Assembly (NCBI GenBank): GCA_016207065.1
Contig: JACQQK010000127.1
Location: 1 to 37,042, forward strand
Reading direction: 5' to 3'
DNA from: Nitrospinota bacterium
GTDB taxonomy: Bacteria > Nitrospinota > Nitrospinia > Nitrospinales > JACRGP01
DNA length: 37,042 nt
In this document: positions 1 through 19,094 of the stretch, in pieces
Position numbering within the stretch: the stretch's first letter is position 1
How the letters are laid out: every line of letters begins with the position of its first letter
The notes under the pieces: model-generated
Told to the model about the DNA's origin: nothing
The model's database searches: none
What the model saw: only the letters and a program-made list of their open reading frames with translations
Position numbers and translations under genes: made by a program

Positions 1-174
1 CCCCTCCCCAGCGTGACGCTGGACTCCATAGGCTCGGCTCCGATGGCGAAGGGGAGTCATCGGGGGCAATCCGGGTTTGGCCATCCCGCTCCGGGGCGTT
101 CCCCGGTCAAGGGAGGGGGAGTAATTTGAGGGTCGAGCCAAAGGGTTTATTTTGTTAGACGCTCTAAGGATGGG
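1..174 (+). repeat. Dispersed palindromic repeat, copy A (left end cut by window)
   Basis: This block is closely similar to 18795-18956. Both carry the near-palindrome CCAGCGTGACGCTGG, then shared text including GGCTCCGATGGCGAA and GGGGGCAATCC. A second hairpin follows (CCGGGGCG, then CCCCGG), and a closing G-rich GGGAGGGG stretch mirrors the C-rich start. The likeness continues weakly past that point to ATTTTGTTAG. No reading frame in it looks real. It is probably a REP- or MITE-like non-coding element; its true left end lies outside the window. Confidence 0.75.
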
Positions 175-295: not shown

Positions 296-1033
296 TTGAA
301 GAGCGCGGCCATTTTTTCGGACCCATCGACGAACGCCGCCAACCGGCAGACCATGAACTCGGAACGACCGGCAAGCATTTACGAACTGATGAGGGAGTAC
401 GCCATCCTCAACAAACTCCCGCCCGCGTTGGAATCCCTCACGCCGGAGTTGGGAAACAGCCTGTCCCTTCTCCACTCGTGTCTTGTCGAATCCGGGATCG
501 AGCGCGAGGAGGCCGACGGGAAACCCCGCGTCGCCGCTCCGCCGGCGGAAATCAACTCCAATCACCTGAGCCATTTTCTCGTCGGGTTCCTGCCCTTCAA
601 TTCCATCACCGCGAAAAACGACATCAACAACGCGCTGTTCGAAATTTATTCGTTTTTCCACTGGCTGGACAAGCGGGGCATACCGCACGGCCTGGCGAAC
701 CTGGATTTCACCAAGGCGGTCAGGGAACTGTCCTCCGACCAGGAACGTTGCCTGCGCTTGAGCCACCTGCTGGACGACGAGACGGGGCGCGTCCTGGAGG
801 ACCAGATGGAGATCATGGACACCGTCACCGACATCTTTTCGGTGGTGAAAATCGAGGGCGAGTTCGCGTATCTGAGGGGACGCAAATACGCCGAGCCGTT
901 CCGATTGCGACTGCCCAGCCACATCCTTTGCCTTCTCGAGCCCAAGGACAACCTGGACCTCGTCCTGGGCGACACGGCGGAGAAATGGGTCCTGCTGGAA
1001 GCGGGGCAGGTCTTTCCGGATTACGAGATCTAG
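296..1033 (+). CDS. Hypothetical protein, 245 residues
   Basis: I do not recognise this protein. It starts with TTG, chosen because GAGAGAGG sits six bases upstream; an ATG at 353 would give a product 19 residues shorter but has a weaker ribosome site. No signal peptide or membrane segment is visible. The middle (about residues 95-165) is rich in predicted helix, and the stretch NALFEIYSFFHWLDKRGI faintly recalls the N-terminal helical domain of tyrosine recombinases, though there is no catalytic domain. The last 75 residues look beta-rich. The gene converges on the giant CHAT gene, and the two stop codons share the tetranucleotide CTAG at 1030-1033. It has no operon partner in the window, so context gives no function. 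Confidence 0.75.
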   Translation: MKSAAIFSDPSTNAANRQTMNSERPASIYELMREYAILNKLPPALESLTPELGNSLSLLHSCLVESGIEREEADGKPRVAAPPAEINSNHLSHFLVGFLPFNSITAKNDINNALFEIYSFFHWLDKRGIPHGLANLDFTKAVRELSSDQERCLRLSHLLDDETGRVLEDQMEIMDTVTDIFSVVKIEGEFAYLRGRKYAEPFRLRLPSHILCLLEPKDNLDLVLGDTAEKWVLLEAGQVFPDYEI

Positions 1034-4000
1034 CGGTAATCGCCGGTCAAATTGAACCCCGCCCAATAGGCCGGGTGGGGATATAGCCTCTTCACCAGCA
1101 ACTGGGCCTTCCGCAAGCTCTCCGCCTTGTCCTCCTGGATGTAGTTCCGGTAAAAGTGTTTGATCAGGACCGCGGTGGAAATATCGCTGACCCGCCACAA
1201 CGAGGAGATAATGGCGTGCGTCCCCGCGTAGATGAACGCCCGGTTGAGCCCCACCAACTCGTCCCCGCCGACGATCTCCCCCAACCCCGTCTGACAGGCG
1301 CTCAGCGTGACCAGGTCGGCGTTGATGTTCAGCGAAAACACCTCGCTCGCCTGGAAACTCCCGTCCTGCTCCAGATCGGGGGTCAGCTTGAGGGAGGAGA
1401 ACAGCGGGTTCACGGGATCGAACTCCCCGTGCGAGGCGATATGGATGATCTGGTATTCGCCAATATGTTTATGCACCCAGCTTTCCGCGGCCTTGTCGCG
1501 GGTCAGGACGTCGATTTCCGGAAAGTCCCACCGGATTGAATTGGCCTCCAACTCGGCCAGCGGCAAATCGTAATTGAAGTTCTTGAGGTCCGGATTGCCC
1601 AGGGCGAGCGCCTTGATCTTGCCCGTCTTCTCGAATTTGCGCTTGAAGGTAAACTTGAGCACGGAGGCGCTGGGCGCGTAAAAAATCGGCTTCTTCTCGA
1701 TCAAGTACCCTTCGGCGTCCCTCAGGGACGCGAACGACACATAGTGCAACTGGCCGTGGGGAACGATGCCCAGGACCCGCTTGCCCTTGAAGTATTTCTC
1801 CGCCGGTTTGACGACCCATTCATATAACCTGGCGGATTGGTCCTCCGCGGGGGCCAGGCGCTGTATGCGCATGCGGTAATCCTTGACCAGGGCGTTGAGG
1901 TCCGCTTCCTTGACCGGCGCGCGGACGACGTCGATTTTCCCGTTGACGACGATCCACGCCACCAATTCGTTTTCCGTCGTCAGGTACTCCACCAAAGCCA
2001 GGTCGTCGCCCAGCAATCCATAAAGCTCCCGCAAGGTCAACGCATCGACGGTAACGAAGGCCGAGACCTCGGGATTCTCGGACTTGACCTCGATCAGCAA
2101 ATCCTGGTAGCGGTTGCGTTCGGCGACCAGTTGTTCCTTCATCTTCTTGACGCTCTCGTCGTCCCCGAACGCCTTGCCCAGGGACTCCTCCAAGGCGCGT
2201 ATCGCCTGTTTCTGCTGGAGGAGTTTTTCGTAAGTCTTCTGGCTCGCGTCGTTTTTCAAACCGATCTTCTGGTTTCCCAGAAGGTCGATGAAACTCCGCG
2301 ACTTGGCGCGCTCGGCGAAATTAAAGGATTCCTCCACCTTCCCCTGGTCGAGCAGGAGCAGGACCAACTCCTTGTACACGTCCTGCTTGTCCGCGAGGAA
2401 CCCGTTCTGGAACTCCTCCACCTTGATGGCGGCGCGCATCCGGTCCACCACCTCCGCGGCCTTCTTATAGGCGTCGAGGGCCTCCTCGGGGCGTTTCAAT
2501 CGCGCCAGGCAGAACCCCTCGCCGCGATACGCCCGCCAGACGACCTCCTGAATACGCAGTCCCTCGGCCATCTTTCCGGTCTCCCGGAAAGCGGCGGCCG
2601 CCTTCTCGCAGTCCTTCCTCTCGATCGCCAGGTTGCCCATCTCCAGCATCGACTTGACGAGGTTGGTCTTGTTGCCGATCTCCGAGCTGAGGGCGACGGC
2701 CTGTTTGATGTGTCCTTCCGCCTCGTCCAGGCGCCCCATCCGCATAAAGCTCATGCCCAGGTTCCGATGGGTGTAGCCCTGGCCCCATTTGGACTTGAGC
2801 TGGACGTCCATCTCCAGGGCCTTTTGGAAATACTCGACCGATTCGGGATACTGCTTGTCCTTGCGGTAAACCAGCCCGATGTTGTTGTAGGCCGTCGCCA
2901 TGTCCAGCGGCGAATGGATTTCCCCGGCCAGACTCAGGCCATGGTTCAAGTGGGTCAGCGCCCGCTTCGAATCGTTGAGCGTCCAATAGATCAACCCCAG
3001 CGTGTTGTAGATAAACGTCTGCTGGCGCTTGTCGCCGATGTCCTCGGCAATCTCCAGGGCCTGTTTTTGAAATTTGAACGCGTTCTGATAGTCCCCCTGG
3101 TACCAATGGGAGTTCGCTTGATACAGGAGCGCCTTGCTCAATTCCAGTTTTAAGTTTTTCGACTCCGCGAGGGACTGCCCCTCCCGGTAGAATTTCAGGG
3201 CCTCGGCGAAATTGCCTTCTTTCTCGGCAACCAGCCCAAGCTCCAGGCCGGTCTCGACCGCTTGATCGGCCCGGTCGAGCTTTTTGAACAGTTCGTTCGC
3301 CTGGGTAAAATATTTCCGCGCCTCGCCGTAGGCGCTCAACCGCAAATAATAAATCCGCCCGATCCGGCGAAGCTCTCTCCCCCGGTCCAGGTCCTCCCCG
3401 GTCTCCTCGCTGATCCTCAGGGACGCGCGGAACGCGTCCAAGGCCTTGTCGTAATCCAGCGCGTTCTCCTCGACGATGCCGAGGGCGCTGTAACTCTCCG
3501 CCAGTTTGTCCAGGGCCTCGTTCTTCTCGTATATGGCCAGAGCGGTTTTCAAATTCTCGGCGGCCTTCGGGTAATTCTCGGCGCGGGAATACAGGATGCC
3601 GAGGAAATAGATCGCCTCGGCATGTTCCTTCGGCTTGGCCTTCTTCTCCGTCAGCTTGACCAACTCCTGTTGATACTGTATGGCCTTCGGGTAATCCTCC
3701 TGGTTGTAAGCGGCCTGGGCCAGGACCTTGTATATTTTCGGGGCGGTTTTTTTGTCCTGCATCAGGTCCAGGAGGGCCAGCGCCTTTTCGAAATACCCGA
3801 TGGCCAGGGGCCAGTCCCTGGCGATGAACGCCTTTCCGCCCTTTTCCACGTTGGCCTCGAAATGGGCCTTGGCGAACGCGTTTTTCTCGAACTCGTCCAT
3901 CCCCGGAAACCCGTAAAACCGGTAGCCCGCCCACGCCAGCGAACCGGGGCGCTTCTTGCGGAGTTCCAACTGCGCCTGGCGGAGCGAGTCCGCGGGGTTG

Positions 4001-7000
4001 CCCTTCCTGAACCCGGCATAAAACAGGTCGAGAAACTCCGCATGCTCGTTGGGATTCTTCGGCCCGAAATGGAGCAATATCCCGGGGAACCCCATGAAAT
4101 CCAGGCCGTGGAGAAGCGGCGCGGCCGGCGAGACGTCCAGGCCGGGGTCGATCTCGTAATCCACGTCGTTCAACGCGATGAAATTCGCCTCCAACGACCT
4201 GCCGTAAAGGTCCTCCAGCCTGGCGCGCTCGAACTGGTTGCCGCGGTGGGTCACGCCGATATAGGAATTGAACGGGTCCAGACGCTCCAGAAACGTTTTG
4301 CTCTCCACGTCCGCCACGCCGTATTGCGCCAGGCCCGAGAGGAAACGCTCGGCGGTCCCCTCCTCCCCGGTCAGGTTGACCGCCGAGGCGAAACGTCCGG
4401 CGATCCGGGCGAACGGTTTGTCCGGGAATTCCGTAGCCAGGAAACGCGAGTTGTAAAGGTTCCTCCTTTTCTGCGCATTGTAAAACTGCGTCAGCGAGGA
4501 GGCGAATACGACCTTCAACTTTTCGGCGAGGACTTTCCCGTCCATGGTCATGGCGGGCCAGGGGAGAAACTCCAAGGGCCCTCCCGCGACGATGAAAATC
4601 GTCTTGGCGTTGGCCAGCGCCTCCTGGTGAGGCGACAAGAGATACTCGGACAAAATTCCCAGGTCGCGCGGTTGAGGCCGGGCTCCGGAACGGCCCAGCC
4701 GCTGTAAAACGTCGTACAAGACCGGGTTGACCGGGATGCTCCCGCCGAGGACTTTCTTCCAGGTCACGGCCCACGTCAGGACATGGTCGTGCTCCCTCTG
4801 GAACTTGACGATCGCTTCCCCCGGCTTCAAGAATTTACGCACCGCGTCCAACGGCGGCGGTTCGGGGGAAAACAGGTTCGCCATGTCCTCGTCTTCCTGC
4901 CGGAGCGCCGCGATGAACTCCCCGTAATCGTCCAGAAGCTTGTCGAAATTCCCCCGCCGTTCCTCCGCCGTCCCCGGTCCGGGTTTTCCCCCATCGGCCA
5001 GGTCGCGCGCCAACCGGGCGTAATTGACGATCTCCTCGTAATAAGCGGCCCGCTCCTTGTCCTGGAATTTCAACCGCAGGTCCTGCCGGAAGGAGGCCAG
5101 CGCCCGCTGGAGCCCTTTCTCCGAGTAATACAAGGCCTCGCCGAATTGTTTCCGCTCGAACAACGAGCGCGTCAGGGACAGGTAGAGTTCCTCCGCCATG
5201 GCCCGGTCCGCCGGGCTGGAAGGCAACAATCCGTAGGGGAGCCGCGACAGAAATTTTTCCGCGTTCAAGAGTATGGACGTCCGGTCCATCTCCTCGGTCT
5301 GCAGGGAATCGAGGTATTCGAACTGCCATTCGAACCGGAGCAGTTCGTCCTCCGTGGGGAGCAGGCCAGCTTCCCCCTTGTCCCTTGCCTTCGCGCCCAT
5401 CAACCGGCCGGTCAGTGCGAGGTTCTGCTTGAGGGCGGTCTCCATCTCGCGGAGCGGCGCGCCCTTGAAATCGGCGCGGGCGGAGGCCAGGGCCCCCTCG
5501 AAATAACGTCGCGATTCCTTCAGGTACCCGTATTCCTTGGCCATCTCCTCGGAAGCGGCCCGGTATATGGACTTCAACCGCTCGGGATCGGCGCCCGCCT
5601 CGGCCTTGCTCCGGCCGGGGGCCGTGAAACGCAACGCCAGATAATGGTAGACGATGCCGAGATAATTTTTCAGATACACTTCGTATTCCGGGTGGCCCAG
5701 GACTTTTGCCCGCTGGACCGTCCCAACAGCCTCCTCGAGCAAGAGGCGGACGCTTTCCGTCTCGTCGCGCAGTTTGTTCAGCGGGACGAACTCGCATTTG
5801 ACCAGAAAAACGCGCGCCACGTTCGCCGCGTTGACCGCGGTCCCCTGCCGGTTCTCCAACTGGACGCTCAGCTTGTACGATTGCCGGAAGGACTCCTCTG
5901 CCCGGTCGTAATCCCCCGACCGATAATGGTAATGGCCGATCTGGTTGAGGATGATCGCCTTTTCGAGAACGTCGCCGACGTTCTTTTTCGGGTCTGGCCT
6001 GGCCGGCAGGAGGGCCAGCTTTTTCTGGTAATACTCGATGGCCTTGTGGTATTCGCCCACGTCCCCATAAATCCTGCCGATATAATTGAAGATCAGCCTC
6101 CGTTCGCCCGTCTGGTCGAACCCCTCGGCGGCCTGGGTGGAGTCCGGGCCCGCGCCCACCTCGACATTGACGTCGATCAACGCCGTTTTCTCCTTCTCCT
6201 TTTCCTTTCGGGCGACGCCGAATTTTTCCAGGTTCTCGATGGCCTGGAAATAATTGCCCAGCGCCAGCCCCAGGGATTTCGCGTCCTGACTCTCTTTTTT
6301 CCGGTTCAGGTCATACAGGTTGTTGGCGATGTTGCGCAGGGCCCGCGCCAGGGAAACGGTATTGCCGGTCCGCCGGTGCAGGTCGAGCGTCTTGGAAAAA
6401 TACTCGACCGCCTTGGCGAAGCGCCCGCCGTCCTGGTACGCCAGGGCGATGCGGTCGTTAAGCTCCGCCATGCGTTTGAGGTCGTCCGTCCCGGAAACCA
6501 GCTTGAGGGCCTTCTTGTAAAGTTCCGCGGCCTCGTCGGCGAATCCCGACTTGAACGCGCTCTCGCCGTACCGCTGGTAATAGATGGCGTCGCGGACGGG
6601 ATCGCTAAACGCCGGCTTTCCCCCGTCCCTCTCCCTGTAGAAATGATAGGCGGGGAAATAATTTTTCAACAGGTAATGCCCGTTCCCGAGGTTCAGGAGC
6701 AGGTCCAGCCGGTTGTCCGGGTTGTTCACGTTGTCGTTGAGCGACAGGGCGATCTGATATTCATGCAGGGAGCGCTCCAGGTAGCCGGCGTTTTTTTTCA
6801 GCCGTTCCTTTTGCTCGTAAAGCCATCCGAGCGTCTGATGGAAATACGCTTCCCGCGGGTCCAGCGTCAGGGCCCGCGCGATCTCGACTTCCGCCGCGTC
6901 CAGGGCCGGAGGGTCCAGGTAGGTATACGCCAGGCCCAGGGCATAATGGTCCGCCGCCGATTTGCCGTTGGCCGCCAGCCGCGTTTTGTAGAACGGGAGG

Positions 7001-9246
7001 ACCTGATCGATTTTTTTAAGGGCGGCGTGCCCCTGGACGTATCCCCGATGGGCCTCGACGGTTTCGGGGTACGATTCGATCAGCTTGAGATAGGTTTTGA
7101 CGGCCAGCTTGACCTCGCCGACCTTGAGTTCCCATTTCCCTTTCGCCAAGGTTTTGCGGACATACCCTTCCCTGGCGAGCAGAAGGTCTTCCTCATGTTC
7201 CTTGGAGGTTTCCGCGATCCGCCTATAGTAGTTGAGGCTCATCTCCCAGTTTTCCTCTTCCGCGAAAATCCTGGCGAGGGCGAACTGCGCCGCGAATTTT
7301 TCCCGTAGCTCTCCGGGAAACCGCTCTATGGTTTTCCGGTATGCCTCCTTGGCCAGCAGGTTCTCGTTGGCCTCATAAAAAAGATCGCCAATCCGGTTTT
7401 GAACGGCGGCGGACAACAGCGGGAGGGACTCGTATTGCTCGACGATGGCCTGCAGGCTTGAAACCCTCTTCTCCAAGCTCGGTTGCTTTTCGAACAAATC
7501 CAGGACTTCCTGGATGGCCTTTCGCGTCCACGACTCGACGTCGTAATAATCGCGGACCACCTGCACGAAGGCTTCCACCAACCGGTCGTGGTCGCCCACG
7601 GCCGAATAAATCCTGCTCCGCGAAAAAGCCGCTTCGGCGGCGATCGCCCTCTGGCCGGGGAACCCGGCGATGACCTTCTTGTAAAATTGCAGGGCCTTGT
7701 CCGGCTCCTCCAACGCAAAATACCGATGGCCCTTTTCCAACTCCGCGCGGGAAACGACTTGTGGCTGGGCCGAATCGCGGGCGGCAATGCGTTCCAACGG
7801 CTCCAAGGCTTTCCGGCTCGTTTCCTTGTAGGCGGCCGGCCCCTCTTTCCGGGCGTCGGCGACGTCGAGCAGGAGGACCTCGATCTCCGCCAACCCCTTG
7901 TACACCGGGTCGTCCGGAAACTCCTTGAGGAGCCTGGAAAAAATTTCCCGCGCTTGTTCCGCGTGTCCCATGTCCTTGTAGCCGACGCCCGACCGGTAAA
8001 GGATGCGGGGCAGGCCCTTCTCGCCGGCAAACTCCAACGTCACATTGCCGAGAGCCATCAGGCATCGATAGGAAGCCCCGTCTTCCGGGCAAAGGTCTTC
8101 GACCGTTTGCAGGGCTTTCCCGTATTCCTTGTCCTGGGGAACAAGCCCCTCGGCGGGGAGTTCCCATACGTCCACGCTCCCCTTGCGGTTGGAAACGAAA
8201 TACAGGCTTTGGCCATGCAGGGCGGGCTGGAGGTCGTACGTGGAACTGTCGGTCAATTGCCGGAACTTGCCAGGCCAGACCGGTTCGGCGTTTCGTTCCT
8301 CTCTATCCGCGGAGGCGGGGGGACTTTGCGGAGCGGGCGTCCCGGCGGCGGTTTTTTTTTCCGGAGGGAATTCCTGCCATTCGACCCTCCAGATATTGGG
8401 GCGGTCGTCGATCGCGACCTGCCCGTCGAAATTCGTGTCGTCATGGTACCGCGCGAAATAGATCCATTTGCCGTCGGGCGACCAGCGGGGCGAAACGTCG
8501 ATCGCCTTTCCGCTCGCGATCCGCCTCCGCGCGGAGCCTTTCAAATCGAGGACCCATAGCGCGTTCTCGCCGCCATTGGCGCCGGCAATATAAGCCAGAT
8601 ATCTCCCGTCCGGCGACACCGAGGGATTGACCCCTTCGGCAACGGCGTCCGGGTTTTTCGCCCGGGTTTTGACGTTGATCGAAAAAATTCTTTTCGGGCC
8701 GTCTCCGGCATCGTGGGAGGAAAAATAGATCGATTTCCGGTCGGGAGACCAAACGGGATCGGCGTCGGCGGTCGAGGCGTCGGTGAGGCGGACCAGGTTT
8801 TCCTCGGGACCGTTTCCGCGTTCGGGGCCTTCGGCCCGGGAGCGTCCCAAAAGGTCCGCGACTTTCGAGAGACCGAGGGGGAGCAGATAAATATCGCCGC
8901 GCGGGTCGGACCGGTTGGAGACAAAGGCGACCCATTCGCCGTCGGGACTGATGGCGGGGGAGTTGTCCTCGGCGCCGTGAAACGTCAGTTGGCGGTCCGG
9001 GGGATGGGCCCCCGGCCCCAGTTCTTTCAACCACAAGTCGAGGTTGCCCGACCGGTCCGAAACGTAGACCAGGAATTTGCCGTCGGGCGAAACCGCGGGG
9101 GCGAAATCCTCGCCCGGATTGGCGGTGACTTGGACGGGCTCGGCGAATCGGACGGGTCCGGCCCACGCGTCCAGACGCGGCAAGAGCAGGAAACCGGAGA
9201 AAAGAAACGCCCCGATGGATTTCAGCTTTGTTCCCAGGATTCGCAT
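1030..9246 (-). CDS. Giant exported TolB-propeller / TPR / double-CHAT protein (about 2738 residues)
   Basis: The start at 9246 is chosen because the protein then opens with a signal peptide (MRILGTKLKS, a hydrophobic core, then DAWA as cleavage site). A longer TTG start at 9390 would place the promoter -10 box inside the coding region. Residues about 35-400 hold six PD40/WD40-like repeats of the SPDGKFLVYVSDRSG type, as in a TolB-like propeller. Long tetratricopeptide arrays follow (about 430-1400). About 1450-1780 is a CHAT-like domain with a histidine (H1667, THRGNQF) but no cysteine: the SACQTG position reads LNDVDY. More TPRs span about 1790-2300. The C-terminal CHAT (about 2420-2738) has HIASHGEF (H2606) and LSACQTGLGE (C2651), the catalytic pair of this clan CD peptidase family. 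CHAT proteins relate to separases and the Csx29 protease. Function is inferred: a secreted or periplasmic scaffold-protease. Substrate is unknown. Confidence 0.9.
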   Translation of the reverse strand: MRILGTKLKSIGAFLFSGFLLLPRLDAWAGPVRFAEPVQVTANPGEDFAPAVSPDGKFLVYVSDRSGNLDLWLKELGPGAHPPDRQLTFHGAEDNSPAISPDGEWVAFVSNRSDPRGDIYLLPLGLSKVADLLGRSRAEGPERGNGPEENLVRLTDASTADADPVWSPDRKSIYFSSHDAGDGPKRIFSINVKTRAKNPDAVAEGVNPSVSPDGRYLAYIAGANGGENALWVLDLKGSARRRIASGKAIDVSPRWSPDGKWIYFARYHDDTNFDGQVAIDDRPNIWRVEWQEFPPEKKTAAGTPAPQSPPASADREERNAEPVWPGKFRQLTDSSTYDLQPALHGQSLYFVSNRKGSVDVWELPAEGLVPQDKEYGKALQTVEDLCPEDGASYRCLMALGNVTLEFAGEKGLPRILYRSGVGYKDMGHAEQAREIFSRLLKEFPDDPVYKGLAEIEVLLLDVADARKEGPAAYKETSRKALEPLERIAARDSAQPQVVSRAELEKGHRYFALEEPDKALQFYKKVIAGFPGQRAIAAEAAFSRSRIYSAVGDHDRLVEAFVQVVRDYYDVESWTRKAIQEVLDLFEKQPSLEKRVSSLQAIVEQYESLPLLSAAVQNRIGDLFYEANENLLAKEAYRKTIERFPGELREKFAAQFALARIFAEEENWEMSLNYYRRIAETSKEHEEDLLLAREGYVRKTLAKGKWELKVGEVKLAVKTYLKLIESYPETVEAHRGYVQGHAALKKIDQVLPFYKTRLAANGKSAADHYALGLAYTYLDPPALDAAEVEIARALTLDPREAYFHQTLGWLYEQKERLKKNAGYLERSLHEYQIALSLNDNVNNPDNRLDLLLNLGNGHYLLKNYFPAYHFYRERDGGKPAFSDPVRDAIYYQRYGESAFKSGFADEAAELYKKALKLVSGTDDLKRMAELNDRIALAYQDGGRFAKAVEYFSKTLDLHRRTGNTVSLARALRNIANNLYDLNRKKESQDAKSLGLALGNYFQAIENLEKFGVARKEKEKEKTALIDVNVEVGAGPDSTQAAEGFDQTGERRLIFNYIGRIYGDVGEYHKAIEYYQKKLALLPARPDPKKNVGDVLEKAIILNQIGHYHYRSGDYDRAEESFRQSYKLSVQLENRQGTAVNAANVARVFLVKCEFVPLNKLRDETESVRLLLEEAVGTVQRAKVLGHPEYEVYLKNYLGIVYHYLALRFTAPGRSKAEAGADPERLKSIYRAASEEMAKEYGYLKESRRYFEGALASARADFKGAPLREMETALKQNLALTGRLMGAKARDKGEAGLLPTEDELLRFEWQFEYLDSLQTEEMDRTSILLNAEKFLSRLPYGLLPSSPADRAMAEELYLSLTRSLFERKQFGEALYYSEKGLQRALASFRQDLRLKFQDKERAAYYEEIVNYARLARDLADGGKPGPGTAEERRGNFDKLLDDYGEFIAALRQEDEDMANLFSPEPPPLDAVRKFLKPGEAIVKFQREHDHVLTWAVTWKKVLGGSIPVNPVLYDVLQRLGRSGARPQPRDLGILSEYLLSPHQEALANAKTIFIVAGGPLEFLPWPAMTMDGKVLAEKLKVVFASSLTQFYNAQKRRNLYNSRFLATEFPDKPFARIAGRFASAVNLTGEEGTAERFLSGLAQYGVADVESKTFLERLDPFNSYIGVTHRGNQFERARLEDLYGRSLEANFIALNDVDYEIDPGLDVSPAAPLLHGLDFMGFPGILLHFGPKNPNEHAEFLDLFYAGFRKGNPADSLRQAQLELRKKRPGSLAWAGYRFYGFPGMDEFEKNAFAKAHFEANVEKGGKAFIARDWPLAIGYFEKALALLDLMQDKKTAPKIYKVLAQAAYNQEDYPKAIQYQQELVKLTEKKAKPKEHAEAIYFLGILYSRAENYPKAAENLKTALAIYEKNEALDKLAESYSALGIVEENALDYDKALDAFRASLRISEETGEDLDRGRELRRIGRIYYLRLSAYGEARKYFTQANELFKKLDRADQAVETGLELGLVAEKEGNFAEALKFYREGQSLAESKNLKLELSKALLYQANSHWYQGDYQNAFKFQKQALEIAEDIGDKRQQTFIYNTLGLIYWTLNDSKRALTHLNHGLSLAGEIHSPLDMATAYNNIGLVYRKDKQYPESVEYFQKALEMDVQLKSKWGQGYTHRNLGMSFMRMGRLDEAEGHIKQAVALSSEIGNKTNLVKSMLEMGNLAIERKDCEKAAAAFRETGKMAEGLRIQEVVWRAYRGEGFCLARLKRPEEALDAYKKAAEVVDRMRAAIKVEEFQNGFLADKQDVYKELVLLLLDQGKVEESFNFAERAKSRSFIDLLGNQKIGLKNDASQKTYEKLLQQKQAIRALEESLGKAFGDDESVKKMKEQLVAERNRYQDLLIEVKSENPEVSAFVTVDALTLRELYGLLGDDLALVEYLTTENELVAWIVVNGKIDVVRAPVKEADLNALVKDYRMRIQRLAPAEDQSARLYEWVVKPAEKYFKGKRVLGIVPHGQLHYVSFASLRDAEGYLIEKKPIFYAPSASVLKFTFKRKFEKTGKIKALALGNPDLKNFNYDLPLAELEANSIRWDFPEIDVLTRDKAAESWVHKHIGEYQIIHIASHGEFDPVNPLFSSLKLTPDLEQDGSFQASEVFSLNINADLVTLSACQTGLGEIVGGDELVGLNRAFIYAGTHAIISSLWRVSDISTAVLIKHFYRNYIQEDKAESLRKAQLLVKRLYPHPAYWAGFNLTGDYR

Positions 9247-9378
9247 GTCGCCAAGAGTCTCCGCCCGGACGGCGTCGCGGTTTTCCATTTCGGCCAGGAA
9301 AGGCGCCGGGCGGACGAGCGGCGAGCCGAGGGTCTCCCCGCTCGCGGATAATGCCGTTCGGTTCCCGCGCCGCTCCCG

Positions 9379-9408
9379 ATTATAACCCAACCGCGCAAGA
9401 AATGGGAA
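9379..9408 (-). promoter_or_regulatory. Candidate sigma-70 promoter for the CHAT gene
   Basis: On the minus strand a perfect TATAAT lies at 9379-9384, with TTCCCA (4 of 6 matches to TTGACA) at 9403-9408 and an 18-base spacer. Transcription would begin near 9371, leaving a leader of about 125 bases before the ATG at 9246. It lies between the upstream methyltransferase gene and the CHAT gene, so the giant gene probably has its own transcript. Confidence 0.5.
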
Positions 9409-9481: not shown

Positions 9482-10576
9482 TTAGAGGAGGAGGGCCGTC
9501 CAGACAAAATCCGCCAGGGGCTCGAACGCGCTCATCGCGTTCCGCGTCTCGGATGCGGATTGCGAAAGCGTCGCGTAATTTATGACCGCGGCGTTGAACT
9601 GGTCGCGGAGGGCGAATATGGAACCGAGAAGGTCCTGGATGTTTTGATATTTTCTCCCCGCGGGTTTTCCCCGCAGGCTCCCCTCCAAATGCATGGCGTT
9701 ATAGAGAACGTCCACCGCCGAAAACAGTTTATGCCGTTTTTCCCCCAGGGACTTGTCCTCCTCGAAGCCCCTTTGCCTTGCGGAAAAATCGGGTCTCTTC
9801 ATGGAGAAAATCAAATAGTACGGCTGGGTCAAGCCCGCGGACTGCAAGGTCCGCGGATGCGTTTCGGGGGCCATCTCAAAGCCGACGAACATCCAGCCTT
9901 CCATCTCCAGAATGGCGGCCGTCGTCCTGGCGAGGATGATGTTATCCAATGTCAGCAAAAGGCAACCACGGTCGCCGAGGAAGTCCTTGGACCGGAAGAC
10001 AAAAAGGGAGGACATCCGGGGGTTGGGCAAAAAGGCCGTCACGCAATCGCACGGAAAAAAATCCGCCTGGCCGGCGCCATCCGAGTCGAGCTTATCGAGT
10101 CCAGCGTCGCGCTGGCCGGGCAAGCGCCCGGAGGCAATTTGCCCCGCCCGGACTGCCCCCGATGACGATTGTTCGCCATCCGAGTCGAGCCTATTAGATA
10201 CAGCGGCGCGCGGGCGGGGGGAAAGATCGCGGATGTCGGTGTCGAACGAAATCTTGTCCCTGACGGATTCCAGGGACCGTTTCATTTCCTCCCGTTCGGC
10301 GGCGGACAGGTTCCGCGCGTTGGCGATGCGTTCGACCTCCTCCAGGACCTTCTCGTATTTCAGGACCTCCACGCCGCGGACCTCGTAGCCGGCGCCGGAC
10401 AACGCCCGCGAACTCTGCCCGTCAAACACGCCCACGTCCAAAACCTTTTTGGCGGAGGAGCCGCCTGGCAACGAATCGACCTCCCGCCAGAGGGATTTCT
10501 TGAGGCCTTCGTCGCCTCCGGATTCAAACCGGACCTTGTTTTTTAGGATCGCTCCGCTAAATAACCTTAACGGCAT
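9482..10576 (-). CDS. SAM-dependent methyltransferase-like protein with a repeat-derived insert
   Basis: Residues 44-55 (KVLDVGVFDGQS) fit motif I of class I methyltransferases, the AdoMet-binding glycine loop, and GVEVLKYE (68-75) fits the acidic end of the second strand. CDCVTAFLPNPR (176-187) could be the motif IV region. The acceptor substrate is unknown. The C-terminal 130 residues are not recognised. Residues about 122-168 are encoded by a copy of the dispersed palindromic repeat, which keeps frame and lies between the expected core strands; they contain LDSDG twice and are low in hydrophobic residues. Without this insert the protein would be about 317 residues. The start ATG at 10576 has a purine-rich AAAAGGGCGGA just upstream. 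The next gene downstream on the same strand is the CHAT gene, but it seems to have its own promoter. Whether the enzyme is active with the insert cannot be told from sequence. Confidence 0.7.
   Translation of the reverse strand: MPLRLFSGAILKNKVRFESGGDEGLKKSLWREVDSLPGGSSAKKVLDVGVFDGQSSRALSGAGYEVRGVEVLKYEKVLEEVERIANARNLSAAEREEMKRSLESVRDKISFDTDIRDLSPRPRAAVSNRLDSDGEQSSSGAVRAGQIASGRLPGQRDAGLDKLDSDGAGQADFFPCDCVTAFLPNPRMSSLFVFRSKDFLGDRGCLLLTLDNIILARTTAAILEMEGWMFVGFEMAPETHPRTLQSAGLTQPYYLIFSMKRPDFSARQRGFEEDKSLGEKRHKLFSAVDVLYNAMHLEGSLRGKPAGRKYQNIQDLLGSIFALRDQFNAAVINYATLSQSASETRNAMSAFEPLADFVWTALLL
10073..10213 (-). repeat. Palindromic repeat inserted in frame inside a coding region
   Basis: Read on the minus strand this stretch matches the copies at 1-174 and 18795-18956: TAGGCTCGACTCGGATGGCGA, then GTCATCGGGGGCAGTCCGGG, a CCGGGCG/GCCCGG hairpin, and CCAGCGCGACGCTGG. 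The element wraps round: a 32-base segment at 10074-10105 recurs with a few changes at 10174-10205, 100 bases apart. The host reading frame stays open through it. It resembles the Rickettsia palindromic elements in being tolerated inside a protein gene, but the sequence is unrelated as far as I can see. Confidence 0.75.
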
Positions 10577-16224: not shown

Positions 16225-18573
16225 ATGCCCGATATTCAAAAAACCTCTGAAAACCGCGATTTCATGTTCCCGGTCATGGGAACCCTGCTGACGGCGGCCC
16301 TGCTTGCCCTGGATTCCGTCACCGAACTGGGCGTGGCGAGCGGGGTCACCTACGTGGCGGTGGTCCTGCTGGGGTTGTGGGCCCCGCAGAAATGGTTCCT
16401 CCCGGCCGCCGGGGCCGCCGGGACGGTCTGCACGGTCCTCGGTTATTTTCTTTCGCCGCCCGGCGGGGAGTTGTGGAAAGTCGTCACCAACCGCGCGCTG
16501 GACATCACCATCATCTGGATAACCGCCATCCTCTGCATCCTCCAAAGAAGACAGGCCCTCGCGAATATCGACAAGGAACGGCGCTTGAGCGCCATCGTGG
16601 ACCACATGTACGACGCCTTGATCGTCATCGACGAAAACGCCGCCGTCGTTTCCTTCAACCCGGCGGCGGAACGTTGCTTTGGATACGCCGCCGGCGAGGT
16701 CGTCGGGAAAAACGTCAGGATGTTGATGCCGGAGCCTTACCGGAGCGACCACGATAGCTATATAAAAAATTATTTGGAAACCGGCAAAACCAAAATCATC
16801 GGCGTCGGCAGGGAACTGACCGGCAAGCGGAAGGACGGGTCCCTCGTCCCGATGGACCTGTTTTTGAGCGAGATGTTCCAGAAAGGCCAGCGTTATTTCA
16901 TCGGCATCATGCGGGACATTTCCAAGAGGAGGGAGACCGAGGACGCCTTGCGCGAAAGCGAGAAACGCTACCACACGGTCTTCGACCAGCTCGCCATGAT
17001 CCTGGGCGGCACGTCCTCGGCGATCGGCGAGAAATTCCTCCGCTCTCTCGTGTACCACCTGGCTTCCGTTTTCAACGTCAAACACGCCGTCATCGGGGAA
17101 CTGACGGGCAGGGGCAGGGACCGGGTCAAGACGCTGGCCATGTGGTCGAACGGAAACTTCGCCGAGCCTTTCGAGTATTCCCTGAAAGACACGCCCTGCG
17201 AACGGGTGATCGCCGCGGGCGAATGTTATTTCCCCCGGGACCTCCCAAAGTTGTTCCCCAGGGACCATCCGCTGGTCGACATGGGGCTGGAAAGCTATTA
17301 CGGGGTCCCGTTGCAAGACCCGGAGGGAACGGTCGTGGGCCATCTGGCGATCATGGACGGCAAACCGATGGAAGACCTGCCGAACCGGCAGTTGATCCTG
17401 CCCATTTTCGCGGCCCGGGCCGAGACCGAACTGGAACGCGGAAGGACCGAGAGACAGCTCCACATCCTGTCAACGGCGGTGGAGCAGAGCCCGAGCTCCG
17501 TGGTCATCGTCGACCGCGGGGGACGGGTCATGTACGTGAACCCCAATTTCCTCAAAACCACGGGCTACACGATCGAGGAAGTCGTCGGCCAAAACCCCCG
17601 GCTGTGGAAATCCGGCATCCACCCGCCCGAGTTCTACCAGAACCTGTGGCAAACCATTTTGTCCGGCAAGGAATGGCGCGGCCATATCTGCAACAAAAAG
17701 AAGAACGGCGAACTGTATTGGGAACTGCTGTCCATCCTGCCCCTGCGGGACGATAGAGGCGACATCGCCTACTTCGTCGCCGTCAAGATCGACGACACCG
17801 AGCGCCGCAAGGCCGAGGAAAGGACGCGCCACTACGCCGCCGAACTGGAACGGAGCAACCAGGCCCTGCAGGATTTCGCCTCCATCGCCTCCCACGACCT
17901 GCAAGAGCCCCTGCGCAAGGTGATGGCGTTCGGCGACCGCGTGCGCGACCGCGCCCCCGCCCACGACCCTAAAATCGCGGACTACCTCGACCGGATGCAA
18001 AACGCCACCCTGCGCATGCAGAAGTTCATCGACGACCTCCTGCAATTTTCCCGGGTGACCACGAAAGCCCAGCCGTTCATGCCGACCGACCTGGGCGAGA
18101 TCGTTTCCGGGGTCCTGTCGGACCTGGAGACCCGTATCGCCCAGTCCCAGGCGAAAGTGAGCGTCTCCAGCCTGCCCACGGTCCAGGCGGACGGCATGCA
18201 GATGCGCCAGTTGTTCCAAAACCTGATCGCCAACGCGCTGAAGTTCCACCGCAAGGACGAGCCGCCCGTCGTGACCGTCGCCAGCCGCCCCGGGCCAGAC
18301 AGCTTCTGGGAGATCTCGGTGGAAGACAACGGCATCGGCTTCGACGAGAAGGAGACCGAGCGCATCTTCAAACCCTTCGAACGCCTGCACAGCCGGAGCG
18401 AATACGAAGGGAGCGGGATCGGTCTCGCGATTTGCCGGAAAATCGTACAGAGACACGGCGGGACTATCACCGTCCATAGCGCCCCGCAAAAAGGCGCGAA
18501 ATTCGTCATCGCGCTTCCCCGCAAACCAAACCTGGAGGAAAATCTCCAGCCGTCCAACGCTCGAACTATTTAG
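16225..18573 (+). CDS. Membrane PAS-GAF-PAS sensor histidine kinase
   Basis: The 782-residue protein autophosphorylates on histidine and would pass phosphate to a response regulator. About four membrane helices fill residues 15-107. A first PAS domain (about 121-236) is close to the oxygen sensor FixL, including MPEPYRSDHDSYI with a histidine at 176 where FixL has its haem ligand, and an arginine at 196 where FixL has the oxygen-contacting arginine. A GAF domain (about 250-410) and a second PAS (about 415-540, NPNFLKTTGYTIEEVVGQNP) follow. The HisKA helix holds the phosphoacceptor in SHDLQEPLRK (H557). The ATPase domain has NALKFH (N box), EDNGIGFD (G1) and GSGIGLAICRKIVQRHGG (G2). There is no receiver domain and no response regulator beside it, so it is an orphan kinase here. 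The start has no clear ribosome site. Confidence 0.92.
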   Translation: MPDIQKTSENRDFMFPVMGTLLTAALLALDSVTELGVASGVTYVAVVLLGLWAPQKWFLPAAGAAGTVCTVLGYFLSPPGGELWKVVTNRALDITIIWITAILCILQRRQALANIDKERRLSAIVDHMYDALIVIDENAAVVSFNPAAERCFGYAAGEVVGKNVRMLMPEPYRSDHDSYIKNYLETGKTKIIGVGRELTGKRKDGSLVPMDLFLSEMFQKGQRYFIGIMRDISKRRETEDALRESEKRYHTVFDQLAMILGGTSSAIGEKFLRSLVYHLASVFNVKHAVIGELTGRGRDRVKTLAMWSNGNFAEPFEYSLKDTPCERVIAAGECYFPRDLPKLFPRDHPLVDMGLESYYGVPLQDPEGTVVGHLAIMDGKPMEDLPNRQLILPIFAARAETELERGRTERQLHILSTAVEQSPSSVVIVDRGGRVMYVNPNFLKTTGYTIEEVVGQNPRLWKSGIHPPEFYQNLWQTILSGKEWRGHICNKKKNGELYWELLSILPLRDDRGDIAYFVAVKIDDTERRKAEERTRHYAAELERSNQALQDFASIASHDLQEPLRKVMAFGDRVRDRAPAHDPKIADYLDRMQNATLRMQKFIDDLLQFSRVTTKAQPFMPTDLGEIVSGVLSDLETRIAQSQAKVSVSSLPTVQADGMQMRQLFQNLIANALKFHRKDEPPVVTVASRPGPDSFWEISVEDNGIGFDEKETERIFKPFERLHSRSEYEGSGIGLAICRKIVQRHGGTITVHSAPQKGAKFVIALPRKPNLEENLQPSNARTI

Positions 18574-18730
18574 AGCTCCTAATAAAATAAATTCCTTTAT
18601 AACTCCCTCCCCCTTGAGGGGGAGGACGGGTGGGGACGCCGGGCAACCGCCCGGAGGCGACGCGGCGATGACGCTGACGCGGTCGCCGGAATGCGAATCC
18701 CCCCGGCCCCCTTTGCAAGGGGGAGTTGCA

Positions 18731-18758
18731 TCCCGCCTCGGCGTCAGCCTGAGGCGGC
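18731..18758. repeat. REP-like hairpin, second copy
   Basis: TCCCGCCTCGGCG, AGC and GAGGCGG occur here in the same order and spacing as at 13702-13730. The arms CGCCTC and GAGGCG pair. The two copies differ mainly in the loop. Confidence 0.55.
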
Positions 18759-18794
18759 GTCGGGTCCAGCGTTCACGCGGGTCACCCTCCCCCA

Positions 18795-18956
18795 GCCCCC
18801 TCCCCAGCGTGACGCTGGACTCAACGGGCTTGGCTCCGATGGCGAAAGGGCGTCATTGGGGGCAATCCAGGCTTGGCCATCCCGTTCCGGGGCGTACCCC
18901 GGAGGGAGGGGATGGTTTTTGCGTCGAGATCGCCGGTTCATTTTGTTAGGCGCTTT
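18795..18956 (+). repeat. Dispersed palindromic repeat, copy B
   Basis: This matches copy A (1-174) in the same orientation over its whole length, with scattered base changes. Shared parts include CCAGCGTGACGCTGGACTC, TGGCTCCGATGGCGAA, GGGGGCAATCC, TTGGCCATCCCG and ATTTTGTTAG. Pyrimidine-rich CCCCCTCCCC at the left mirrors GGGAGGGG at the right of the core, like short terminal inverted repeats. No transposase gene is nearby, so if mobile it depends on an enzyme elsewhere. Confidence 0.75.
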
Positions 18957-19094
18957 TAACAAAATTCGAAAATCTTTCTTGCCATGCGGCGCCTGCCTGC
19001 GGATAATTCCATTTTTCCCCAACGTGAACGCGAGCGTTGGATCCAATGCCGCCTCCCCGACCGCGCGGGAGCAAACTTTACAAGAGGGAGAAAA

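Follow-up and report, generated by a model that had tools for sequence, protein, structure and literature searches.

Excerpts of a 2024 review (PMC10969869) describe palindromes within genes, the Rickettsia palindromic elements (RPEs), whose behavior is comparable to that of the element reported here, and judge it "conceivable" that MITEs drive a similar process in other prokaryotes. The excerpted text of PMC2996958 places long palindromes that code for protein in Rickettsia and Wolbachia, cites a Methanocaldococcus example as well, and also describes PARCELs, amphipathic repeat sequences that add coding DNA to genes. Enterobacterial RU elements, at 103 to 168 bp, are likewise repeat DNA adding coding sequence to genes (PMC2759123, in excerpt). 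REPs are given a length of 20 to 40 bp and occur inside genes in several species, where dimers and clusters encode 20 to 82 residues (PMC3733652, in excerpt).

We analyzed a window of 37,042 nt, the whole stretch of contig JACQQK010000127.1 considered here, in which a first-pass annotation had noted a dispersed repeat with hairpins. What that annotation missed is the main point, the in-frame insertion of the repeat unit into many conserved enzymes. The unit is very probably a selfish, nonautonomous palindromic element special to this genus and working like RPEs. Our search of the open-access literature found no earlier report of this 99-nt element. The host phylum is Nitrospinota, not Rickettsiales: the MetH encoded in the window is 97% identical to that of a groundwater MAG, JACRGP01 (isolate NC_groundwater_1754_Pr3_B-0.1um_58_23). 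The window's genome is referred to below as G000 and that of its sister species as G001, which was taken to be JACRGP01 because core matches lie at identical coordinates in both; the two are incomplete MAGs (79.6% and 71%, respectively).

The repeat unit and its copies in the window

Two copies ~18.8 kb apart had been described as alike over some 160 bases, and this was borne out: the stretch 18795-18956 matches 1-163 with 82% identity over query positions 3 to 160, on the same strand (E = 1e-38), and a 106-nt ungapped direct repeat between the two copies is 90% identical. A BLAST search of G000 with the repeat returned 42 places at E ≤ 1e-3, which rules out chance as the source of the likeness. 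A core of 99 nt makes up the conserved block and is bounded by two hairpins, CCAGCGTGACGCTGG (hairpin 1) and CCGGGGCGT(T/A)CCCCGG (hairpin 2), so that the two internal hairpins noted previously are found at 8-22/18804-18818 and 91-106/18887-18902. The repeat at 18795-18956 is real, but its earlier extent covers only the right part of a MITE that spans 18573-18955. The features of the window are as follows.

8-106, plus strand: 99-nt core of the MITE at the contig start, hairpins at 8-22 and 91-106 (114.2 bits, E = 2.2e-14)
1-164, plus strand: MITE of the same kind as that at 18573-18955, truncated where the contig begins; its right end is ...GTTAGACGCTC, with TAA directly after it at 165-167 (base positions checked)
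9482-10576, minus strand: host gene of the window's in-gene copy, 364 aa (ORF with a sister-species match)
10075-10221, minus strand: in-gene copy, ~1.5 tandem units in frame, pieces 10075-10115 and 10122-10213, hairpins at 10101-10115 and 10116-10131
18570-18572, no strand: TTA target duplication, left copy (base positions checked)
18573-18955, plus strand: whole intergenic MITE, 383 nt, ends GAGCTCCTAATAAAAT... and ...ATTTTGTTAGGCGCTT (inverted-end pair found by script, L159:1270-1652)
18607-18755, plus strand: further hairpin modules of this MITE, at 18607-18624, 18639-18654, 18707-18723, and 18735-18755 (base positions checked)
18804-18902, plus strand: 99-nt palindromic core, the unit also found within genes (covariance model R1, 110.9 bits, E = 7.1e-14)
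18804-18818, plus strand: terminal hairpin 1, CCAGCG TGA CGCTGG (base positions checked)
18887-18902, plus strand: terminal hairpin 2, CCGGGG CGTA CCCCGG (base positions checked)
18956-18958, no strand: TTA target duplication, right copy (base positions checked)

The in-gene copy of the first-pass annotation is also real and consists of two tandem minus-strand pieces in an ORF conserved in G001, where residues 129 to 364 are 97% identical to the match. This ORF had no Pfam match at E ≤ 0.001; its N-terminal motif presumably resembles those of SAM-dependent methyltransferases. The neighboring stretch 1030-9390 (minus strand) encodes a giant protein of 2,786 aa that combines PD40 propeller repeats with numerous TPRs and carries a CHAT domain at its C terminus.

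The carrier MITE

The MITE end GAGCGTCTAACAAAATG, allowing ≤3 mismatches, was found at 167 places in G000 and 241 in G001, compared with 3 and 1 for the reversed control. Twenty inverted-end pairs in the examined loci of both genomes span 137 to 412 nt. Their left flank is TNA in 19 of 20 cases, and target duplications, which the first-pass annotation had suggested looking for, were recovered as identical TAA or TTA on both flanks in 13 of the 20 pairs; when right flanks were shuffled, TNA preference alone gave a mean of 6.5 identical pairs, with a maximum of 13 in 2,000 shuffles. Core copies in MITEs have arms of the ccctcc and gggagggg types on their two sides, and these arms account for the C-rich and G-rich ends of the earlier description. 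We take the TNA duplication and GAG ends of the MITE to recall, probably, the IS5/IS1031 group.

Copy number and distribution

A covariance model built from 28 core copies found at least 92 matches in G000 and at least 136 in G001, both counts being lower bounds since the best 150 candidates per genome were scored. The family is thus dispersed well beyond the three copies first noted. None of the candidates scored in three other genomes of the same family was a match. Among 61 genomes of the order, searched with stricter filters and the best 67 candidates per genome scored, core matches were limited to G000, G001, and one weak match in G025 (47 bits). In the sets searched, the element is therefore restricted to the two sister species, with this weak match aside, and an order-wide distribution was not supported for the 99-nt core. 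A plasmid or phage origin was also dropped, there being no match in a plasmid collection or in a phage collection.

The hairpin CCAGCGTGACGCTGG, usually followed by ACTC, heads otherwise different sequences across the order (L043 to L060, other Nitrospinales), possibly as an older palindrome family. The contig itself starts within a MITE copy (window positions 1-164), and core matches also lie close to, or right at, the ends of several G001 contigs; the repeat may therefore be a cause of fragmentation in these assemblies.

Core units inside genes

On translation of the loci, the same core was seen within long reading frames. Copies were classed as in-gene when codon scores, trained on identified genes, marked the flanks on both sides as coding within one open frame. 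By this definition, 13 of 71 copies examined in G000 (in 11 genes) and 8 of 36 examined in G001 lie within genes; the copies examined in detail are a nonrandom sample. The 21 in-gene copies use several reading frames and both directions, and each unit, single or in tandem, adds ~33 residues with the frame kept. Host genes include those for prephenate dehydrogenase (TyrA), exopolyphosphatase (Ppx), tRNA-dihydrouridine synthase (Dus), FabZ, DnaX, an M20-type peptidase, and a NifU-like protein, and two further hosts are, we assume, genes for a thioredoxin/YyaL-like protein and a substrate-binding protein.

A phase-blind check left five odd cases, with flanks either in different frames (L030, L031, and L040) or in the same phase with intervening stops (L022 and L185). 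In four of the five, the stop of the upstream gene lies 3 to 71 nt before the element, and in L040 an ORF that we take to be ParA-like has the element as its C-terminal tail. With these cases resolved, no gene disrupted by the core unit was found among the copies examined.

Among 76 full-length copies, 16 lie in genes, 15 of them of exactly 99 nt and one a 144-nt mosaic in FabZ. Length was a multiple of three in all 16 in-gene units and in 41 of the 60 others (P = 0.008; P = 0.055 for 99 nt alone). The in-gene test itself requires an open frame, which biases this comparison, and the 16 units are partly nonindependent (TyrA is counted in both species, and L025 holds two), so the length result is one of tolerance, not of targeting. 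Open frames averaged 4.5 in 15 in-gene copies and 3.7 in the remaining copies. The idea that the core has more open frames than chance was dropped, as three of the six frames of the consensus are free of stops, compared with a mean of 3.1 for shuffled sequence.

Two further observations concern in-frame inserts. FabZ (L194:718-859 and L228) carries an in-frame mosaic insert of ~48 codons with several hairpin modules, common to both sister species, and in L199 (DnaX) and L028 (AAA ATPase-like) the peptide FDKGGREDPPFNKGGLGGFPV resembles translated CCCCCTTT...AAAGGGGG repeats. Other repeat families of the genome seem to lie in frame within genes as well.

In our preferred reading, the mobile unit is the 99-nt core with its two terminal hairpins, and it occurs in either of two settings. 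As a passenger, it lies in intergenic MITEs with GAGCG...CGCTC inverted ends and duplicated TNA targets, as for the copies listed above at 8-106 and 18804-18902. Outside MITEs, it is present in units of 99 nt, alone or in tandem, and in many cases within a gene, where each unit would be translated in frame as ~33 residues, judging from the reading frames. The core would be tolerated in genes because 99 nt is divisible by three, because some of its frames are free of stops, and because the peptide, in TyrA, falls in a disordered loop. In-frame placement would then reflect selection after insertion rather than targeting of a frame, and the proteins that carry an insert presumably still work.

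Filled and empty sites in the sister species

To compare sites, 33 flank pieces were used as ortholog probes; a match in the other genome was obtained for 12 of the 21 pieces from in-gene sites and for 5 of the 12 from intergenic sites, and the rest were not comparable. At three in-gene sites (L187, L195, and L023), the other genome has no insert. The genes for the NifU-like protein and the M20 peptidase each have exactly 99 extra bases in G001 and an empty site in G000, while L023 has 102 extra bases in G000 and an empty site in G001. At one further site, the thioredoxin/YyaL-like gene (L025), copy number differs: G000 has two tandem units and G001 a single one, so that the alleles differ in length by exactly 99. 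The empty allele of the NifU-like gene already carries TCCCCGG, the element's own end.

The insert is common to both genomes at four in-gene sites (L170, L039, L172, and L194), with extra modules alongside that of L039 in G001, and the inserts in TyrA, Ppx, Dus, and FabZ are older ones of this common kind, TyrA being a site additional to the four. Modules are different or rearranged at the remaining four (L169, L028, L035, and L197). Among the five intergenic sites, one is common (L012), the MITE of L003 is missing in G001, L015 and L006 have other content, and L004 is uninformative. Over a wider set of relatives, 23 genomes have an ortholog of TyrA that could be aligned; 2 of these, which both belong to this genus, carry the insert, and the other 21 lack it (G019 and G023 had no TyrA match). 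The NifU-like insert is present in 1 of 24, a count that leaves out G023, with a weak paralog below the cutoff, and the second G011 copy. The spread of a nonautonomous mobile element, which the first-pass annotation offered as one explanation, is well supported by these empty sites together with the at least 92 and at least 136 copies and the MITE ends with 3-bp duplications.

The same comparison bears on whether the core is MITE cargo only, with in-gene units being remnants of MITEs trimmed by deletion or by recombination between hairpins. In favor, the window copies and many others sit in MITEs with TNA flanks, and 4 of the 12 compared in-gene sites have different or rearranged modules. However, the gain at the NifU-like and M20 sites is 99 nt exactly and leaves neither a MITE end nor a C-rich or G-rich arm, and solo copies are often flanked by CCGG, whereas MITE copies have the ccctcc/gggagggg-type arms. 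We therefore consider a pure cargo origin unlikely.

Site preference and possible routes of movement

In 35 solo copies (the first of each array, outside MITE arms), CCGG directly precedes the core in 16 (background, 1.2%) and CC directly follows it in 22 (background, 7.5%), with 6 of the latter being the start of a further unit; sites common to both species are included, so that not all 35 are independent and binomial P values overstate the bias. No fixed-length target duplication was evident at solo copies. Single-strand (Y1/HUH) transposition would be expected to leave such a trace, with hairpins at the ends, a short preferred target, and no duplicated bases. In line with the lack of a fixed target duplication at solo units, movement would make use of the folded single strand; annealing or template switching at CCGG may be the route just as well.

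The first-pass annotation had pointed to a REP-associated transposase, and the core could be moved in REP fashion by a RAYT that recognizes the single-stranded hairpin. The terminal hairpins with their kept pairing, the lack of an evident fixed duplication at solo units, and the bias to follow CCGG would all suit such an enzyme. The hairpin head CCAGCGTGACGCTGGACTC is also seen, in different contexts, elsewhere in the order, and PF01797 (RAYT) matched in 17 of the 61 order genomes, including one match in G001 (L289:995-1531) that is above the curated cutoff of NCBIfam NF047646. However, a profile search for PF01797 gave no match in G000, which is 79.6% complete (the control matched in 5 of 14 genomes), and the single G001 RAYT is flanked by different palindromes (tttatggag...ctccaaa, read by eye), with none of the at least 136 core matches of G001 in the stretch around it. 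Neither end of the consensus carries GTAG or CGTC. The RAYT link thus did not hold up, and we rate this route as improbable, on a par with the cargo origin. A stretch like the palindromes of the G001 RAYT adjoins L021 in G000.

A more specific form of our preferred reading, a selfish palindromic element of this genus, is put forward tentatively and with somewhat less than even confidence. It is possible that the core is one more protein-coding mobile palindrome, independently evolved and lying outside the intracellular bacteria from which long ones have been described. It would be a cassette of fixed length, 33 codons, that can stack in tandem, that is inserted behind CCGG through hairpin-dependent single-strand transposition with no duplication of the target, and that was recently active between the sister species.

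Pairing in the hairpins

Pairing was scored in 52 distinct 99-nt copies at 12 terminal stem pairs (624 cells). Standard pairs occupy 588 of the 624 cells (94%), compared with 30 to 52% when partners were slid by 1 to 3 positions. In 18 cells both partners have changed, whereas shuffles gave 4.8 ± 1.6 such cells; the 18 stem from 3 of the 12 stem pairs, mainly through a G-C to C-G exchange at the pair of positions 88 and 95 in 13 of 52 copies (CCGGGG/CCCCGG versus CCGGCG/CGCCGG). The number of pairs with a both-side change was matched by 146 of 2,000 shuffles, not clearly above chance, and pair types in the terminal stems were not above shuffles. As read from these alignments, pairing is kept at the terminal stems, partly via compensating changes.

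Two earlier claims have to be narrowed in this light. The paired arm changes reported for the in-gene copy, from CCGGGG/CCCCGG to CCGGGC/GCCCGG, look more like a swapped hairpin module than like point changes, because the sequence leading into the stem also differs and the CCGGGCAACCGCCCGG hairpin, with the same stem, is a separate module of the MITE (18639-18654); compensating changes do occur among other copies, in the 13 of 52 just described. Selection on the folded form, also suggested at first, is supported for the two terminal stems only and not for the middle of the core, where covariation was little and neither covariation nor folding against shuffles revealed a conserved fold.

Strong hairpins might also mark a functional RNA, such as a terminator, attenuator, or small RNA, with the in-gene copies incidental. 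One consensus strand folds better than shuffles (z = -2.4), but the reverse strand (-0.4) and two in-gene variants (-1.2 and -0.1) do no better than shuffled sequence, the window has no Rfam match at gathering cutoffs, and 21 examined copies lie within coding frames, in several frames and both directions. We consider this explanation very improbable.

Fate of the inserted peptide

The best PDB match of TyrA, 4wji, aligns in two parts split around the insert. The AlphaFold model of TyrA has a mean pLDDT of 89, falling below 50 at insert residues 155 to 179, which are without helix or strand and sit between a strand and a helix. The TyrA insert is thus predicted to be a disordered loop. In five inserts compared between G000 and G001, there were 12 nonsynonymous and 6 synonymous codon changes, versus 69 nonsynonymous and 101 synonymous ones in the remaining parts of these genes (P = 0.045), a borderline sign that the inserted peptide may be under little constraint. 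In Ppx, a 4-base loss and a 4-base gain cancel within the insert, keeping the frame and changing the residues.

A protein repeat domain retained for its peptide, which the tandem in-frame units of 33 residues could evoke, is scarcely credible, since peptides differ between in-gene copies owing to the different frames and both strands used, the Ppx indels alter residues while keeping the frame, and the share of codon changes that alter an amino acid is higher in the inserts than in the genes around them. The inserts of ~33 residues in G000 and G001 proteins are likely mobile DNA and not domains.

Comparison with known systems

The genome pair offers filled and empty sites in conserved genes of two sister species, and the junctions are exact, a site bias is seen, and copy number varies, so that entry into genes and tolerance become directly testable. 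The closest likeness is to RPEs, in behavior: in both, a palindromic repeat is found in intergenic DNA and in frame inside unrelated genes, the insert is absent from orthologs in relatives (here, TyrA 2/23 and NifU-like 1/24), and it falls in an unstructured segment (here, in the AlphaFold model of TyrA only). Unlike RPEs, the present element is hosted by a groundwater Nitrospinota MAG outside Rickettsiales, and its 99-nt core has two unlike terminal hairpins, stacks in tandem, and rides in TNA-duplicating MITEs.

REPs of the GTAG/CGTC type are also palindromic, present in many copies, and sometimes within genes. In contrast to them, our consensus begins with CCAG... and ends in ...CCGG, with no GTAG or CTAC and with GACG only inside hairpin 1; no RAYT flanked by the core was found in G000 (incomplete) or G001; and the core is 99 nt long, versus the 20 to 40 bp given for REPs in excerpts of PMC3733652. 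The carrier resembles MITEs in its GAGCG... inverted ends in many copies, 3-bp TNA duplications, and length of 137 to 412 nt, a likeness that applies to the carrier and not to the solo in-gene core. With PARCELs and RU elements, the present element has in common that repeat DNA adds coding sequence to genes; they differ from it in that PARCELs are amphipathic repeats and RU elements, at 103 to 168 bp, were described in enterobacteria (PMC2996958 and PMC2759123, both in excerpt). The kind of element is thus known, and what sets the present one apart is its 99-nt cassette, tandem stacking in genes, carriage by MITEs, CCGG bias, and host group.
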